NCBI RefSeq assembly: GCF_014287875.1
Contig: NZ_JACOPN010000004.1
Coordinates: forward strand, 196,388 to 260,387
Source of the DNA: Flintibacter faecis
Lineage (GTDB): Bacteria; Bacillota; Clostridia; Oscillospirales; Oscillospiraceae
Length of the DNA stretch: 64,000 nucleotides
Direction of reading: 5' to 3'
A program made the position numbers and the translations under genes. Shown here one piece after another: positions 24,421-61,567 of this stretch (the first letter of the stretch is position 1; every line of letters begins with the position of its first letter). The notes beneath the pieces were generated by a model. That model did not search any database and was not told the origin of the DNA. It saw only the letters and a program-made list of their open reading frames with translations.

Positions 24421-24425
24421 ACCGC

Positions 24426-24457
24426 AAAAACAGCCGCCCGGCCGGGCGGCTGTTTTT
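24426..24457 (+). terminator. Terminator of the GGDEF gene
   Basis: AAAAACAGCCGCCCGG directly followed by its perfect complement ending in TTTTT. Confidence 0.88.
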
Positions 24458-24473
24458 GCGCGTTGGGGAACGG

Positions 24474-38291: not shown

Positions 38292-38300
38292 GTGAGCAAA

Positions 38301-38550
38301 AAAGCCTTCCCCTGGGGGAAGGTGGCACGGCGCAGCCGTGACGGATGAGGGGAACGCCATCGACATTTGAGCATTTCCGACAGAACAGCCAAAGCCTTCG
38401 CCCCGCAGGGGAGAAGGTGGCATGGGCGCAAGCCCATGACGGATGAGGGGGACCACGGAGGTGCACCCGTTATCGACGGGCCGACACAGAGGTCGGCCCC
38501 TACGGCGTGTCACGATGGCTTTTGTAGGGGCGGACCTCCGTGTCCGCCCG
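38301..38550. repeat. Dispersed repeat cluster 3
   Basis: The 380-nt gap between the ZIP gene and the tetR gene has no gene up to the tetR promoter. It contains two CCTTCCCC...GGAAGGTGGCACGG...GATGAGGGG elements (38301-38353 and 38391-38451) and two GGC/GCC palindromes (38478-38503 and 38524-38550). Confidence 0.8.
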
Positions 38551-38591
38551 TTCGATGACCACCGCACCAACGGAACTCCCCCAGATTTAAC

Positions 38592-38620
38592 TTGCCTTTT
38601 CTCCCGGTCTATGCTATACT
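38592..38620 (+). promoter_or_regulatory. Promoter of the tetR-ubiquitin/SLH operon
   Basis: TTGCCT (38592-38597), 17-nt spacer, TATACT (38615-38620), about 54 nt upstream of the tetR start. Confidence 0.65.
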
Positions 38621-38673
38621 GTGACCATACTCACAACATCACTCACTCTGTTTGCACAAAGGAGGTAGATCCC

Positions 38674-39402
38674 ATGCCCGCCAAAGGAAAACGCACCAGC
38701 GGGCTGCTGACCCAGCAGAAGATGCTGCGGGGGGCGGTGTCGCTGTTTCTGGAGAAGGGCTATGAGGGAACGACCACGGCGGAGATCGCCCGGGCGGCGG
38801 GGATGACCCCCAGCTCCTTCTTCCGGGCCTATCCCAGCAAGGAGGCCCTGCTGCTGGAGCTGGTGCGGCGGATGTTCTCCGGCCAGTTCGCCCTGGCCCA
38901 GCAGCACAGCGGCCCGACGGACCCGGTGGTGCTGTACGCCGTGGAGACCGCCATACAGCTGCACATCGCCGAGCTCAGCGAGCCCCTGCGGGACCTGTAC
39001 GTCACCGGCTACTCCCTGCCCACCACCTCGGCCTATATCTACCACAGCACCGCCAAGCGGCTTCAGGTCATCTTCGGCCCCTATCTCCCCCAGCTCCAGG
39101 CCAAGGACTTTTACGAGATGGAGCTCGCCTCCGCCGGGATGATGCGCAGCTTTATGTCCGTCCCCTGCGACCTCTATTTCACCATCGAGGCCAAGATCTC
39201 CCGCTTTCTGGACTGCGCCCTGACCCTGTACCATGTGCCCCAAAAGCAGCGGGAGGAGATCATCCACTTTGTGCTGCACCTGGACCTGCGCACCATGGCC
39301 GTGGGCATCATCCAGAGCACCGTAATGCAGGCCGAACAGGGCTTTGCCCTGCTGCCCGAACTGGACCAAGATACACATGACAGGAAGGAGGAACGCAAAT
39401 GA
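38674..39402 (+). CDS. TetR-family regulator coupled to the ubiquitin-SLH gene
   Basis: 242 residues from the ATG at 38674, behind AAAGGAGG with 8-nt spacing; the open frame reaches back into repeats but has no site there. The N-terminal helix-turn-helix has [37 protein letters not shown], the TetR signature. The C-terminal ligand domain is unlike any I can name. The stop overlaps the next ATG in ATGA (39399-39402), so this regulator is made together with the ubiquitin-domain surface protein and may control its expression. Confidence 0.9.
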
Positions 39403-42400
39403 AGAAAAAACGCCTGTTCCGCACCCTGACAGCCACCGTTCTGTGCCTGTCCATGCTGTGCATGAACGCCAGCGCCATGCAGATTTTCGTCAAGACTCTC
39501 ACCGGAAAGCATATCACCCTGGAGGTGGAGCCCGGCGACTACATTTCCACTGTAAAAACCCAAATACAGAAAAAGGAGGGCATTCCCCCCGACCAGCAGC
39601 AGCTCACCTATCAGGGCAAGCTGCTGGAGAATGATAACGAAACGCTGGCAGACCACAATGTTCAGAAGGACAGCACCCTGCATTTGACACTGCGGCTCTC
39701 CCCCGGCACGGCAGAAAACTCCACGGATGTCTCTGACGAGGCCGCTTTGAAGGCCGCCGTTCAAATCGACAACAACTACATCCGGCTCGCCGGCAACATC
39801 GACCTGACCGTTCCCCTGGAAGTCAAGAAAAATGTCACCCTGGACCTGAACGGCTGTGTGCTGAACGCTGGGGGCCGCTGCCCGGTCATACAGCTTTGTG
39901 ACGAAGCCAAGCTGATCGTTGTGGACAGCAACCCCACCAAGCCCCACTATTTCACGGTTGATAAAAACGGCCTGTGGAAATGGAACGACACCGACGCAGC
40001 CACAGAAAACAAAGTCCTCGGCGGCATTATCACCGGCGGCAATTCAAAAGCATCTATCTATTTCTCCAGCGGCGGTGGCCTCGTCCTTGATAAAAACACG
40101 TCGGCGGAGCTGCGCAGCGGCAGCATCGTGGGCTGCACGTCGGACAAGGGCGGCGGCGTGATTGTCACCAAGGGAGCTTCCTTCGTCCTGGGCGACGGCA
40201 GCAGCCCGGCCCGCATCATCGGCTGCACCGTCAGTAATGATTCGACGCTTATGGGCGGCGGTGTGTATGTTACTGCTAATACTCAAGGCGATGCCTCTTT
40301 CACCATGAACCCCGGTGCGGAGATCCGCAGCTGCACCGTTGTTTCTGATTCTTATAGCTCATGGAACTGCGGCGGCGGCGTATTCATCCAAGACGGCATC
40401 TTTACTATGAACGGCGGCACCATTACCGACTGCCACATAGCAGAGCGCGACGCTACTACTAGACGCGGCGGCGGCGTGTACCTCACTAACAGTGCCACAA
40501 TGCACGCCAACGGCGGCCAGATCACGGGCTGCACCGCAGATCAGGGCGGTGCGGCATACAACGACGGCGGCACCATTCAGGCGGACACAAACGCCAAGGG
40601 CACCACCTTCTCCGGTGCGGTCTGCAATAATTACGGCACCATCAGCGGCGGTGTCTTTACCGGCGATGTGACAAATCAGAAGACGGCCACCATCTCCGGC
40701 GGCACGTTCACCGGTGCGGTGACGAATGAAGCCAGTTTCGGTTACGACTCTCGTGGCGACACTTACCTGTGCCAAGGCAAGATCACCGGCGGCACCTTTG
40801 AGGAGGCCGTGACCAACAACGGCGCAGTCATTGAAAGCGGGACCTTTACCGGTACCGTGATCAATAAGAAAGCGCTGGACCAGAACGGCAATACGCTGGA
40901 GGGCGATGACAAGAAACCGGCCCTGGGCCTCATCTCCGGCGGGACCTTCGAGGGACCCGTGACCAACGACCCCAGCTGCACCATCTCCGGCGGCAGCTTT
41001 ACCGGCGATGTGACAAATCGAGAAGTGGCCACCATCAGCGGCGGTACGTTCAACGACACCGTCACCAGCGAGGGCTATATTGAAAACGGCACGTTCAACG
41101 GCGATGTGATCCTCAATAATGGCGGCGTCGCTGGCGGCATTTTCAACGGCAACGGCACGGTGAACAACAAGGCCTCGTATGTTGCCGACGGAACTTTCAA
41201 CGGGGACGTGATCAACGACTTTATGCTTGCAGGCGGGACCTACAAAGGCAAGGTGACCAACAACGGCACCATCGGGATCAACGGCACATTCTATGGTCCC
41301 GTCATCAATAGCAAGAACATTAACGGCGGCACCTTCCTGGGCGACGTGACCAATAACACCAACGGCCAGATCAACGGCGGCACGTTCCTGGACACTGTAT
41401 CCAATAACGGCCAGATCAACGGCGGCACCTTCTCCGGCGCTATCACCGGCACGGGCACCATTGTGGAGGATGCCGTCGTGAAGCTGACCGTCTCCTTCCA
41501 CCCCAACGGCGGCAGCGGCAGTATGGACCCGGTGACGGTGGACTATGGCGCCACCTATCTCTTCCCCGAGAACGGCTTCACCGCCCCCGAGGGCAAGCGC
41601 TTTGCCCACTGGGCCATTGATTCCCTGGACGGCGATACCACTGCCGTCCCCGGCGGCGGGCTGCCCATCCTCCGGGGCACCACCGCCTATGCGGTGTGGG
41701 AGGACATCCCCGGCTCTACCGGCGGCGGGGGCGGCGGCGGACGGACCAGCTATTCCGTCAGCACCGGCAAGACCGGCAAGACCGGCAACGGCACCCTCTC
41801 CCTCAGCGATACCTCCGCCCGCCGGGGCGACACGGTGATCATCACCGTAAAGCCCGACAAGGGCTATACTCTGGAGACCCTCACCGTCACCGACAGCCGG
41901 GGCAGCGCCCTCACCCTCACGGACAAGGGCGGCGGCAAGTTTGCCTTCACCATGCCCAGCGGCAGCGTCACCGTAAATGCCACCTTCATGGAGGACAATT
42001 CCATCCTGAACTTCTTCGTGGACGTGCCCGCCAGCGCCTATTACTACGACGCAGTGAAGTGGGCGGCGGAGCAGGGCATCACCGGCGGCACGGACGAGAA
42101 CCACTTCTCCCCCGATGCCTCCTGCACCCGGGCCCAGATCGTCACCTTCCTGTGGCGGGCGGCGGGCAGCCCGGTGGTGAACTACATTCTGCCCTCTGAG
42201 GATGTGGCCGAGAGCAGCTATTACGCCGAGGCCGTCCGCTGGGCGGCCAGCCAGGGCATCGTCTCCGGCGTCTCCCCCACCCGCTTCGGCCCCGACCTGC
42301 CCTGCACCCGGGCCCAGGCCATGACCTTCCTCTATGGGGCCATGGGCTCCCCCGCCGTCACCGGCGGCTCCGGCTTCCTGGACGTGGACAGCGGTGCGTA

Positions 42401-42533
42401 CTACGCCGGCCCCGTGGCCTGGGCGGTGGAGAACCACATCACCTCCGGCACCGGAAACGGCCTGTTCGGCACAGAGGACATCTGTACCCGCGCCCAGATC
42501 GTCACGTTCTTGTTTGGGCTGTATGGGAAGTGA
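39399..42533 (+). CDS. Secreted ubiquitin-domain, beta-helix, SLH-anchored surface protein
   Basis: 1044 residues. Residues 1-26 are a signal peptide ending in ASA. From Met27 the sequence is ubiquitin-like: [36 protein letters not shown]. By hand alignment about 53 of 76 positions match human ubiquitin, with one inserted residue near position 54. The tail is SPG instead of RGG and the chain continues, so conjugation is unlikely. Residues ~110-400 look like a beta-helix; ~405-695 are short repeats (xGGTFxGxVTN). A Listeria-Bacteroides-type repeat (about 695-770), a Gly-rich linker, a beta repeat and three SLH domains (about 870-1044) follow. The SLH domains should bind the cell wall. AAGGAGG stands 7 nt before the ATG. 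Function is unknown; host mimicry is inference. Confidence 0.93.
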
Positions 42534-42645: not shown

Positions 42646-42725
42646 CGGAAAAAGCCTTCCCCTGGGGGAAGGTGGCACGGCGTTAGCCGTGACGGATGAG
42701 GGGAAGGCCGAAGGATTGGGAGCTG

Positions 42726-42879
42726 TTGCGTGGGAATCCTCCAGTCATCGCCTTGCGGCGATGCCAGCTAGCCCTATCCCTTTTGTCCCTTCGGGACATT
42801 TCCCCTTGATAAGGGGAATCGGCCTTTAACAAGGGGGCCTATTTGAGCAGCACATCAGCCCCCCTTGTGAAAGGGGGGA
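42726..42879. repeat. Direct repeat copy 1 (154 bp)
   Basis: Starts TTGCGTGGGAATCC and ends GAAAGGGGGGA. It contains several nested hairpins (CGCCTTGCGGCG, GTCCCTTCGGGAC, CCCCTTGATAAGGGG). It differs from copy 2 at one substitution and one 1-nt indel. Confidence 0.9.
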
Positions 42880-43037
42880 GGGCCGCAAAGCGGCGGGGGG
42901 ATTCCGGGCGGATGTCCCCATCCGCCCATTCGATGGCCTCCGCACCCAACGATACCCACCCTCATCCGGCCCTTCGGGCCACCTTCCCCCTGGAAGGGGG
43001 AAGGCTTTATCCGTTCTGACGCAAGCTTTCCCAGCCC

Positions 43038-43190
43038 TTGCGTGGGAATCCTCCAGTCATCGCCTGCGGCGATGCCAGCTAGCCCTATCCCTTTTGTCCC
43101 TTCGGGACATTTCCCCTTGATAAGGGGAATCGGCCTTTCACAAGGGGGCCTATTTGAGCAGCACATCAGCCCCCCTTGTGAAAGGGGGGA
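43038..43190. repeat. Direct repeat copy 2 (153 bp)
   Basis: Near-identical to 42726-42879, with AC instead of AA in the CCTTTCACAAGG part and one T fewer in the CGCCTGCGGCG hairpin. The bases after the repeat differ from copy 1. Confidence 0.9.
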
Positions 43191-43350
43191 CACCGCCGAA
43201 GGCGGAGGGGGGATTCCGTCCCCCCGTCCAAAGCCTTCCCCACCCAGGGGGGAAGGCTATGTTCGTTCTGACGTAACGGCTCAAAGCCCTTCGGCGTTCC
43301 CCTCATCCGGCCCTTCGGGCCACCTTCCCCCAGGGGAAGGCTAACCATCC

Positions 43351-59121: not shown

Positions 59122-61416
59122 TCAGTCGTCCCGTTCCCGGCGGAACAGCCTTTTCAGGGGGTTGCGGCTGCGCTTTTTCTCCAGGCGCTCCAGGGCCCGG
59201 GCGGCCTCTTTGCTGCCACCCTCCGCCGCCTGGTGATAGTATTCCAAAGCGGCCTTCCGGTCACGGGGCAGGCCATAGCCGTGCTCCAGGCACTCCCCCA
59301 GCCAATACTGCCCCCTGGCATAGCCCTGGCGGGCCGACCTGCCGAACCACTCCGCCGCCAGCACCCGGTCCTGCTTCATGGCCACGCCGTGGTAATAGAA
59401 GAATCCCAGGCAGCACTGGGCCCGGGCATCCCCCGCCTCCGCCGCCTGGCGATAGAGTTGGGCGGCTTTGGTCTTGTCCTGCTCCACCCCGGTACCCGTC
59501 TCATAGCACAGGGCCAGGGAGCAGGTGGCGGGGGCATAGCCCATCTCGTGGGCGGCCCGGTACAGCTCCGCCGCCCGCTTCTCGTCCTTCTTCACGCCGC
59601 AGCCCAGGTCATAGCACTCCCCCAGCAGGCTCATGGCCCTGGGATGCCGCTGCTGGGCGGACTTGGCAAACCACTCCGCCGCCTTGTCGTCGTCCTCGTC
59701 CACGCCGATGCCCCGGTAATAGCAATAGCCCAGGTTGCACTGAGCCCGGGCATCTCCCCGCTCTGCCGCCTGGCGGTAGAGGGGCACGGCCCGGGCCTTG
59801 TCCATCTCCACGCCCCGGCCCAGCTCATAGCACAGACCCAGCATACAGGTGGCGGGGGGATAGCCCCCCAGGTGGGCGGCCTCATAAAGCTGCGCCGCCC
59901 GCTTTAACTCCTGCTCCACACCATAGCCATGGTCATAGCACTGCCCCAGCAAAAACTCCGCCCGGTGGCTGCCTGCGGCCACGGCCCTTTGAAACCATTC
60001 CACGGCCGTCTCGTCGCTCTCCTCCACGCCAATGCCCTGGTAGTAGCAATAGCCCAGATTGCACAGGGCCCGGGCGTCCCCCGCCTCCGCCGCCTGGCGG
60101 TAGAGCGCCACCGCTTTATCCAGGTCCCGGTCCACCCCCCGGCCCAGCTCGTAGCACAGGCCAAGGGAACAGGTGCCGGCGATCTCGCCCCGGTCACTGG
60201 CAGCCTGAAACAGTCCCACCGCCCGCACCAGGTCCTGCTCCACGCCAAAGCCCCGGTCATAGCACTCCCCCAGCAGGTTCAGCGCCCGGGGATAGCCGCT
60301 CTTGGCCGCCCTGGCAAACCAGTGGGCGGCCTTTTTGTTGTCCTCGTCCACGCCGATACCCATGTAATAGCAAAAGCCCAGGTTGCAGGCGGCGGGGGGA
60401 TAGCCCGCGTCCGCCCCCACCTGATAGAGCTCCACCGCGTGGGCCAGATCCCGTTCCACGCCCACCCCCGTCTCATAGCACAGGCCCAGGGCGCAGGCAG
60501 CGGGGAGAAAGCCCTGGACATAGGCACGGCGATAGCATTCCGCCGCCTTCCGGCTGTCCTGGGCCGTCCCCCGGCCCATCTCGCAGCAGATGCCATAGAG
60601 ATACAGCCCCCGGGCGCTGTCCTGCTCCGCCGCCTGGCGATAGAGCTGGGCGGCCTTTTCCCGGTCAGGCGTGACCCCGATGCCCTGGTCATAGCACTCC
60701 CCTAACGAGCAGGTCCCCTCGTCATAGCCCTGGCGGTGGGCCTCCTCATACAGACGAAAGGCCTTCACCGGGTCAGCTTCCACCCCGTGGCCGTTCTCAT
60801 AGCACTCTCCCAGCAGGGCCTGGGCCCGGGGATAGCCCTGCTCCGCCGCCAGGGTGAACAGGCGGGCGGCCTCCTCATTGTTCTCCGCCACGGCGATGCC
60901 GTGGTAATAGAAAAAGCCCAGCCGGCACTGGGCGGGGGCAAACCCCTGTTCCGCCGCCGTGCGGTAGAGTTCCAGTGCCTTGTCCTTGTCCTGGGGCACC
61001 CCCCGGCCCATCTCATAGCACAGCCCCAGCTCGCACACGGCGGGGATATACTCCTGCTCCGCCGCCGCCATGTACAGTTCAGCGGCCCTGTCAAAATCCT
61101 GATGGGTGCCCACGCCTCCGGCCCAGCACAGACCGGCCCCATACTGGGCGGCGATATGCCCCCCCTCGGCGGCCTGGTCCAGCCAATAGAAGGCCTGCCG
61201 GTCGTTCTGCTCCGCCCCGCCGCTGCCCTCGTAATAACACATGCCCAGGCGATACTCCGCCTCCAGATCGCCGCTCTCCGCCGCGCTCTGGAGCTCCTGC
61301 AGCCCCGCCCGCTTTTTGGCCGACACTGCGGCCATGCTGTGGATCACGTTTGGGTCGATGTACACCATCATCCCGTCCTGCTCCGCCCCGTCCCAGGGCA
61401 CGCGCTCCTCGTCCAT
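59122..61416 (-). CDS. Giant Sel1-repeat protein (764 aa)
   Basis: 764 residues from the ATG at 61414-61416, behind GGAG; the longer open frame starts in a region with no ribosome site. After a 45-residue acidic head, about 19 Sel1-like repeats of 36 residues follow one another without breaks (A..LGxCYxxGxGVxxDxxKAxxLYxxAAExG), then a basic tail KRSRNPLKRLFRRERDD. There is no signal peptide. The repeats are so regular at the DNA level that recombination within the gene is likely. It is probably a cytoplasmic scaffold. It may be related to the 196-residue Sel1 protein at 10,153. Confidence 0.92.
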   Translation of the reverse strand: MDEERVPWDGAEQDGMMVYIDPNVIHSMAAVSAKKRAGLQELQSAAESGDLEAEYRLGMCYYEGSGGAEQNDRQAFYWLDQAAEGGHIAAQYGAGLCWAGGVGTHQDFDRAAELYMAAAEQEYIPAVCELGLCYEMGRGVPQDKDKALELYRTAAEQGFAPAQCRLGFFYYHGIAVAENNEEAARLFTLAAEQGYPRAQALLGECYENGHGVEADPVKAFRLYEEAHRQGYDEGTCSLGECYDQGIGVTPDREKAAQLYRQAAEQDSARGLYLYGICCEMGRGTAQDSRKAAECYRRAYVQGFLPAACALGLCYETGVGVERDLAHAVELYQVGADAGYPPAACNLGFCYYMGIGVDEDNKKAAHWFARAAKSGYPRALNLLGECYDRGFGVEQDLVRAVGLFQAASDRGEIAGTCSLGLCYELGRGVDRDLDKAVALYRQAAEAGDARALCNLGYCYYQGIGVEESDETAVEWFQRAVAAGSHRAEFLLGQCYDHGYGVEQELKRAAQLYEAAHLGGYPPATCMLGLCYELGRGVEMDKARAVPLYRQAAERGDARAQCNLGYCYYRGIGVDEDDDKAAEWFAKSAQQRHPRAMSLLGECYDLGCGVKKDEKRAAELYRAAHEMGYAPATCSLALCYETGTGVEQDKTKAAQLYRQAAEAGDARAQCCLGFFYYHGVAMKQDRVLAAEWFGRSARQGYARGQYWLGECLEHGYGLPRDRKAALEYYHQAAEGGSKEAARALERLEKKRSRNPLKRLFRRERDD

Positions 61417-61567
61417 AGCATTCCGCTCCTTTCTCTCTTGAAAAAAGTCGCTGCAAGCAGCCTTTCTACTTACAGCGACAAAGTATGATCTGATTTCCAG
61501 AATACGCCTGCCGGTCACTTCTTGCCGGTCCATTATAACATAGCCGGCCCGGGTCTGCAACGCCATG

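Follow-up and report, generated by a model that had tools for sequence, protein, structure and literature searches.

A 64,000-nucleotide stretch of the Flintibacter faecis genome (contig NZ_JACOPN010000004.1, positions 196,388 to 260,387; hereafter the window) carries a gene for a 1044-residue protein in which a domain closely resembling eukaryotic ubiquitin directly follows a signal peptide and precedes a repeat rod and three SLH domains. A preliminary description of the sequence had proposed this architecture, which is borne out by sequence, Pfam matches and structural models, and had placed ubiquitin at the distal, N-terminal end of an SLH-anchored rod, which sequence and prediction likewise support. 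The gene and the parts of its product are as follows.

39399..42533, + strand: gene for the ubiquitin-headed SLH surface protein (open reading frame of 1044 aa; Pfam domains; close relatives)
39399..39476, + strand: signal peptide, residues 1-26, its ASA end abutting ubiquitin Met1 (sequence, alleles)
39477..39698, + strand: ubiquitin domain, residues 27-100 (Pfam, phmmer, AlphaFold2, Foldseek, allele alignment)
39711..41468, + strand: predicted solenoid-like rod, about residues 105-690, with repeats of the GGTFTG-VTN type (full-length model, allele alignment)
41778..41996, + strand: divergent InlB B-repeat (Flg_new_2), residues 794-866 (Pfam)
42015..42530, + strand: three SLH domains, about residues 873-1044, limits approximate (Pfam PF00395, E 1.4e-29, three stretches)

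A ubiquitin domain heading an SLH rod

Having both SLH domains and an apparent signal peptide, the protein is predicted to be a surface rod anchored to the wall or S-layer. A putative signal-peptidase-type Ala-Ser-Ala motif lies immediately before ubiquitin (NASA followed by MQIF). The full-length model has a mean predicted local distance difference test score (pLDDT) of 73.6 and places a solenoid-like succession of strands after the head; pLDDT rises to 97 at about residues 460-670 and is below 50 in the SLH part. The class of the rod is read from this strand pattern rather than from a matching structure, the structure-search lists shown being filled by ubiquitin entries.

As checks on its ubiquitin assignment, the preliminary description had proposed a Pfam search and a structure prediction, and both came out in its favour. 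PF00240 matched residues 29-100 with 84.8 bits, above the curated cut-off of 25.4 (E 3e-24), and phmmer comparison with single ubiquitins from the PDB gave E of about 1e-28, far past chance. Alignment to the commonest eukaryotic ubiquitin unit yielded 54 of 76 identical residues and one inserted residue, close to the earlier hand count of about 53 of 76 with one insertion. AlphaFold2 predicted the strands and helix of a beta-grasp fold at high confidence (pLDDT about 89-94 per block, residues 1-70) and, in Foldseek, all 50 rows shown contain ubiquitin, 18 of them at 0.6-0.9 Å over 73-75 columns and the remainder mostly at 1.0-2.3 Å, with two rows above 10 Å.

The domain shares with eukaryotic ubiquitin its predicted fold and lysines 6, 11, 27, 33, 48 and 63, but differs in having a signal peptide, Gln in place of Lys29 and the inserted residue, which is residue 52 of the domain, after 51. 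Moreover, LRLSPG takes the place of LRLRGG and the domain is fused at its C-terminus; Gly75-Gly76 and a free C-terminus are both absent, and with them the tail needed for a role as ubiquitin donor. Most ubiquitin-binding domains read the hydrophobic face formed by Leu8, Ile44, His68 and Val70. The window copy retains Leu8 and His68 but has Thr44 and Thr70 in this face; residues 42 and 46 are both Gln.

Misassembly joining a eukaryotic read to a bacterial gene, which the preliminary description had named as a possible refutation, can be ruled out, since most close relatives share the ubiquitin head and its base composition fits the gene. In a search with residues 104-780, we considered the best 120 of 4614 matches and took the first 112 (P0121-P0232) as close relatives. 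All 112 have SLH domains and the B-repeat, and 105 carry PF00240 in a head of identical type, one of them from a named isolate, Colidextribacter sp. 210702-DFI.3.9. G+C content at third codon positions (GC3) is 0.72 in the ubiquitin part and 0.81 for the gene; across 60 loci of the wider family described below (window included), GC3 of ubiquitin correlates with that of the attached passenger (r 0.93), with a mean difference of 0.063 versus 0.228 after shuffling. The module also occurs in seven loci with isolate-type titles and on a circular Ruminococcus albus plasmid. On the other side, 10 of the 80 genome loci examined in that wider family lack a recognisable signal peptide and some of them may be eukaryotic contaminants or partial, yet the chance that the window gene itself is such an artefact is virtually nil.

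Variation of the head among close relatives

To describe variation in the clade of the window protein, we used 103 aligned proteins, that is, 113 less 10 that had no MKK start or were of 850 aa or less, with the window and an identical copy (P0121) both counted. Mean entropy was 0.04 in the signal peptide, 0.32 in ubiquitin, 0.37-0.71 over residues 121-720 and 0.02-0.06 in the conserved anchor (residues 821-1020), the last residues (1021-1044) being less conserved (0.18); the rod varies in both sequence and length. Twenty of the 103 alleles (P0135, P0143 and P0147, for example) carry three additional residues, MQA, after the signal peptide and before the domain, and here the cleavage site may be shifted or duplicated.

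Within the domain, variation is concentrated on the former recognition face. Mean entropy is 0.09 for core sites, 0.77 for the Ile44 face and 0.31 for other surface sites, and random surface sets match the patch value in only 0.46% of draws (p 0.0046). Position 44 is Thr in 90 alleles, Ile in 12 and Val in one; position 70 is Thr in 70 and Lys in 33, never Val; and position 68 is His in 49, Ile in 36, Asn in 15 and Lys in three. The Ile44/Val70 face is thus altered in every one of the 103 alleles, and C-terminal Gly-Gly occurs in none.

The ubiquitin part falls into 59 distinct haplotypes, with all four combinations present in 174 of 325 pairs of informative sites and linkage dropping with distance (permutation p 0.0015), while ubiquitin identity is barely correlated with rod identity (r 0.10). 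Ubiquitin and rod, as read from the alignment, are variable, recombining mosaics between near-fixed ends.

The gene that follows, for LigA, provided a measure of strain relatedness: the best 120 of 8000 scored LigA sequences are all 98-100% identical to that of the window, the two named ones being from Lawsonibacter sp. DFI.6.74 and Colidextribacter sp. 210702-DFI.3.9. On this evidence the window probably belongs to the species of these isolates or to a neighbouring one. Eleven contigs could be paired, by equal length alone, between 48 of 112 ubiquitin rows and 27 of 120 LigA rows. Their 55 LigA pairs average 99.0% identity (97.9-99.8), whereas ubiquitin identity averages 0.836 (0.747-1.000) and rod identity 0.792; the C-terminal 225 residues average 0.981. 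Contigs with near-identical LigA therefore differ widely in their ubiquitin and rod parts. Such a pattern bears the signature of a surface protein diversifying in its exposed part within one likely species.

Secreted ubiquitins across bacteria

After an initial homologue search that was dominated by eukaryotic polyubiquitins, a genome scan with a seven-row alignment gave at least 353 confirmed relatives, of which the best 80 by similarity to the window domain were kept; two patterns, one of them MQIFVKTL, had found these loci, and part of the conservation at positions 1-8 therefore follows from the selection. A signal-peptide-like start was seen in 70 of the 80 and a cleavage motif abutting Met1 in 71, with both in 69; the 11 lacking one or the other were dropped, and the scan for passengers covered 70 proteins (the 69 and L023). 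Autotransporter barrels (16) were the commonest passengers, followed by Flg_new (8), GLUG (6), MBG_2 (4) and SLH (3). Taxon labels of the best 80 span Bacillota, Pseudomonadota, Actinomycetota, Bacteroidota, Fibrobacterota, Verrucomicrobiota, Chlorobiota, Bdellovibrionota, Synergistota, Thermodesulfobacteriota and the archaeal Methanotrichaceae, though most loci are metagenome-assembled genomes and some labels may be wrong. Seven have isolate-type titles: Conexibacter sp. CPCC 206217, Dyella sp. OK004, Leeia oryzae, Sphingomonas canadensis, Rhodoferax lacus, Ruminococcus albus 8 and Clostridiales NK3B98.

The preliminary description had called ubiquitin this close to the eukaryotic form very rare in bacteria. 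Per genome this holds, with carriers numbering 7 of 400 sampled in one GTDB family and, with the centre of each sample included, 5 of 394 in one order, 5 of 341 in one class and 1 of 349 in one phylum (the centre itself); the 36 genomes chosen as carriers have one or two PF00240 places each. It does not hold for breadth, given the spread over many phyla and the number of confirmed relatives. Searches of phage records returned no match to the window ubiquitin domain. Contigs from a viral collection (L003 2322-2768, also L004 and L005) encode a signal-peptide-like start followed by ubiquitin, in L003 with a tail that by eye resembles IPTL-CTERM.

Where homologous pairs have passengers just 23-54% identical, nonsynonymous divergence (dN) of ubiquitin is only 0.02-0.15. 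Relative to synonymous divergence (dS), the median dN/dS is 0.06 for ubiquitin (range 0.02-0.20) versus 0.43 for passengers, calculated on the 16 of 60 pairs in which both sides were finite and passenger identity was below 60%, the 60 pairs sharing members and hence not being independent. In two close pairs with very few changes, ubiquitin has the higher ratio (0.27 vs 0.17 in L081/L082; 0.56 vs 0.10 in L043/L074). As judged from these sequences, the secreted ubiquitin module is held under strong purifying selection in bacteria. Ubiquitin dS is lower than passenger dS in L043/L074 and in several Clostridia pairs (such as L007/L018 and L021/L031), suggesting that the ubiquitin segment was exchanged and making vertical inheritance less convincing.

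Residue counts over 69 loci plus the window, 70 rows chosen by similarity to the window domain and therefore biased upward, show His68 in all 70, Lys48 in 69, Ile44 or Val44 in 69, Lys63 in 67, Val70 in 55 and Gly76 in 12. The wider family thus mostly keeps the recognition face and mostly not the conjugation tail. Like the window protein, its members (with autotransporter, GLUG, MBG, SLH or IPTL-CTERM parts, or bare) carry Met1 of ubiquitin directly behind the signal peptide, but most of the 69 retain Ile or Val44 together with Val70, unlike the window clade. Two bare ubiquitins behind signal peptides, L036 7905-8228 (Dyella sp. OK004) and L052 7890-8228 (Sphingomonas canadensis), end in RLRGG and are presumably secreted with the full conjugation tail. 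A very diverged minus-strand reading frame, L103 (G009:C134), has a signal-peptide-like start, a ubiquitin-like domain from MYIYVK and a long open frame.

The tree over 73 columns has a star-like backbone and does not place the window clade relative to eukaryotic ubiquitins, within or beside which the preliminary description had looked for it. Membership of the window protein in a clade marked by His12, considered because the protein has this residue, was not supported: the His12 rows (10 rows and L102) lie on one side of a 99/98 branch and the window clade is separate (98/94), and His12 is polymorphic within the window clade (46 His and 57 Thr among the 103 alleles). Examination of 699 neighbouring open reading frames at 70 loci (69 and the window) revealed no partner common to many loci, and an ABC-transporter-like group at 13 of them looks generic. 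A family of about 330 aa adjoins the ubiquitin gene in differing orientation at five loci (L025 423-1433; L033 197-1186; L059 3606-4595; L060 6750-7745; L065 9195-10193) and is a possible partner; the one member scanned had no Pfam match.

Among known proteins, WP_013483628 of Ruminococcus albus 7 plasmid pRUMAL01, annotated 'ubiquitin family protein', resembles the window protein in consisting of signal peptide, ubiquitin and a further part, in coming from Oscillospiraceae and in its 66% domain identity, but it has 246 aa and no apparent SLH rod. The circular plasmid is typed as mobilizable, and on it the gene (L001 5923-6663) lies among small genes with signal-peptide-like starts, not far from one for phosphatidylinositol-specific phospholipase C.

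Identity between the window head and the solved Bacteroides fragilis ubiquitin domain 8hm2, probably that of BfUbb, is 53%. Bacteroides ubiquitins are reportedly imported by an outer-membrane SusCD transporter. Window head and BfUbb are alike in the signal peptide leading to Met1 of ubiquitin (in the window, with the apparent cleavage motif directly before Met1), in the loss of the C-terminal glycine and in their patchy distribution. They differ in that BfUbb is a free small protein, whereas the window domain is not free-standing but heads the SLH rod. Mature BfUbb starts at ubiquitin Met1 and has no terminal glycine, antagonises strains of its own species and seems not to need an immunity gene (PMC5705921). 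BfUbb binds human E1 covalently in vitro, and ubb amplicons were 100% conserved among isolates, in contrast to the strongly strain-variable window head (PMC3352274).

The pairing of a conserved anchor and signal peptide with a variable exposed part also recalls SLH-anchored solenoid proteins and variable surface antigens of Firmicutes. We know of none that bears a ubiquitin head. Nor did we find bacterial ubiquitins fused to SLH or other passengers described in the literature searched, which did not extend to subscription papers and preprints, so absence is not proven.

Possible roles of the head and its genomic setting

With a probability of about 0.5, we interpret the ubiquitin head as a polymorphic, S-layer-anchored, exposed binding tip rather than a ubiquitin tag. 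The head would have been recruited from the wider pool of secreted bacterial ubiquitins. After export, cutting of the signal peptide between ASA and MQIF would leave the native ubiquitin N-terminus as the distal end of a rod held by its SLH domains, with ubiquitin displayed at the far end. The former recognition face (positions 42, 44, 46, 68 and 70) would then have become the variable face, changing by recombination between strains, as might suit a surface module in conflict with, for instance, phages, competing bacteria or antibodies of the host. An antigenic decoy, suggested in the preliminary description, is compatible with the observed variability. More tentatively, and here we remain on the doubting side, many phyla may share an undescribed extracellular ubiquitin module with an exposed N-terminus and a surface under purifying selection, its recognition face having turned, in this species and on an S-layer rod, into a diversified, recombining face that sets specificity in an arms race at the surface.

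Several points weigh against a binding tip. K6, K11, K27, K48 and K63 are invariant in all 103 alleles, although a scaffold free to vary would have no need to retain them, and the variability of the relatives fits either positive selection or relaxed constraint. The core and patch lists behind the patch test came from the ubiquitin literature, and the test was made with the entropies already in view. Selection explains part of the high LigA identity, the LigA list comprising the best 120 only. Some of the apparent mosaic could also stem from chimeric assembly, the relatives being mostly on probably metagenomic contigs.

The main rivals to a binding tip are a tethered BfUbb-like weapon and an inert cap. 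As a contact-dependent antibacterial head, the domain would be a wall-tethered counterpart of BfUbb whose polymorphism sets the range of strains affected. Polymorphism within one likely species is in keeping with this, as is the combination of signal peptide, Met1 ubiquitin, missing terminal glycine and antagonism towards kin in BfUbb (PMC5705921); a missing immunity gene is uninformative because BfUbb itself seems not to need one. Yet BfUbb is free and secreted, and the identity of the fused window domain to 8hm2 is 53%. Gram-positive kin, moreover, would lack an import route of the SusCD type. We consider such a weapon rather unlikely. A structural cap, that is, a fast-folding, stable N-terminal domain that aids export or shields the solenoid end while its surface drifts freely, would explain the conserved core and variable surface in the window clade and why, across many phyla, the module sits at the front of unrelated passengers, immediately after the signal peptide. 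Against free drift stand the constrained surface of the wider family, with residues 44, 48 and 68 nearly or wholly fixed in the 70 rows, and the low dN/dS of ubiquitin relative to passengers, and an inert cap seems to us improbable too.

Mimicry of, or interference with, host ubiquitin, which the preliminary description had entertained, is weakened by the loss of Gly-Gly and of the Ile44 face, and we judge it quite unlikely, whether as an E1 suicide substrate, a deubiquitinase bait or an autoimmune mimic. No allele has the Gly-Gly or free C-terminus, and Thr44 (90 of 103) and Thr or Lys at position 70 (all 103) replace the face. The family, furthermore, has members in Rhodoferax lacus, Conexibacter, Leeia oryzae and Methanothrix, which are not known as gut dwellers. 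In favour of mimicry remain the 54 of 76 identities with the eukaryotic unit and the covalent binding of BfUbb to human E1 in vitro (PMC3352274).

Whichever role applies, the variability is at odds with the reputation of ubiquitin, a textbook example of a near-unchanging protein and normally among the least variable proteins known. Here, strains with LigA 97.9-99.8% identical (11 contigs) can differ at as many as one in four ubiquitin residues, whereas in other bacteria the secreted ubiquitin changes little on strongly diverged passengers, a contrast that makes selection on ubiquitin sequence outside the ubiquitin system directly testable. It also suggests that BfUbb belongs, as a single branch, to a larger group of extracellular ubiquitins in bacteria, and the head, if displayed in the host gut, would be a candidate target of anti-ubiquitin immunity.

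Around the gene, the following features were identified.

38299..38358, + strand: direct repeat, left copy (self-comparison, 61 columns, 95% identity)
38592..38620, + strand: sigma-70-like promoter match before the TetR gene (consensus match only)
38674..39402, + strand: TetR-family regulator gene, likely start MPAKGK, listed open reading frame from 38443 (TetR_N PF00440, E 3.5e-15)
42649..42709, + strand: direct repeat, right copy (self-comparison, 95% identity to 38299-38358)

The TetR stop overlaps the ubiquitin-gene start by four bases (ATGA, 39399-39402), suggesting that the two form a two-gene operon. Sigma-70-like matches in the region numbered two, against a mean of 1.0 in shuffled sequence. 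An invertible promoter was considered and rejected, the inverted repeats at 38,300-39,500 being only short (10-12 nt) or imperfect (22 nt, 77%). The two direct-repeat copies flank the TetR-ubiquitin gene pair, but because similar pieces recur nearby in the window they resemble dispersed intergenic elements, and we no more than suggest that the pair might be mobile.

We found no silent copies of the ubiquitin gene within the window (tblastn), and a Pfam scan of 14 window proteins gave no E1, E2 or JAB proteins. The nearest genus found, represented by 64 genomes, yielded no matches to the ubiquitin domain and none to TetR at E 1e-30, the latter search having been run without a positive control. 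Nor was an empty site of the gene pair seen: LigA loci of three relatives match on the ligase side and none on the ubiquitin side. LigA of the nearest genome found among 61 sampled is 82% identical to that of the window.

A 183-column direct repeat (42726-42906 and 43038-43218, 95% identical) lies between the ubiquitin gene and LigA. Elsewhere, the window contains a 38-bp perfect inverted self-match, or palindrome, at 24423-24460 and, at 59122-61566, a gene for a Sel1-repeat protein with 16 repeat stretches.

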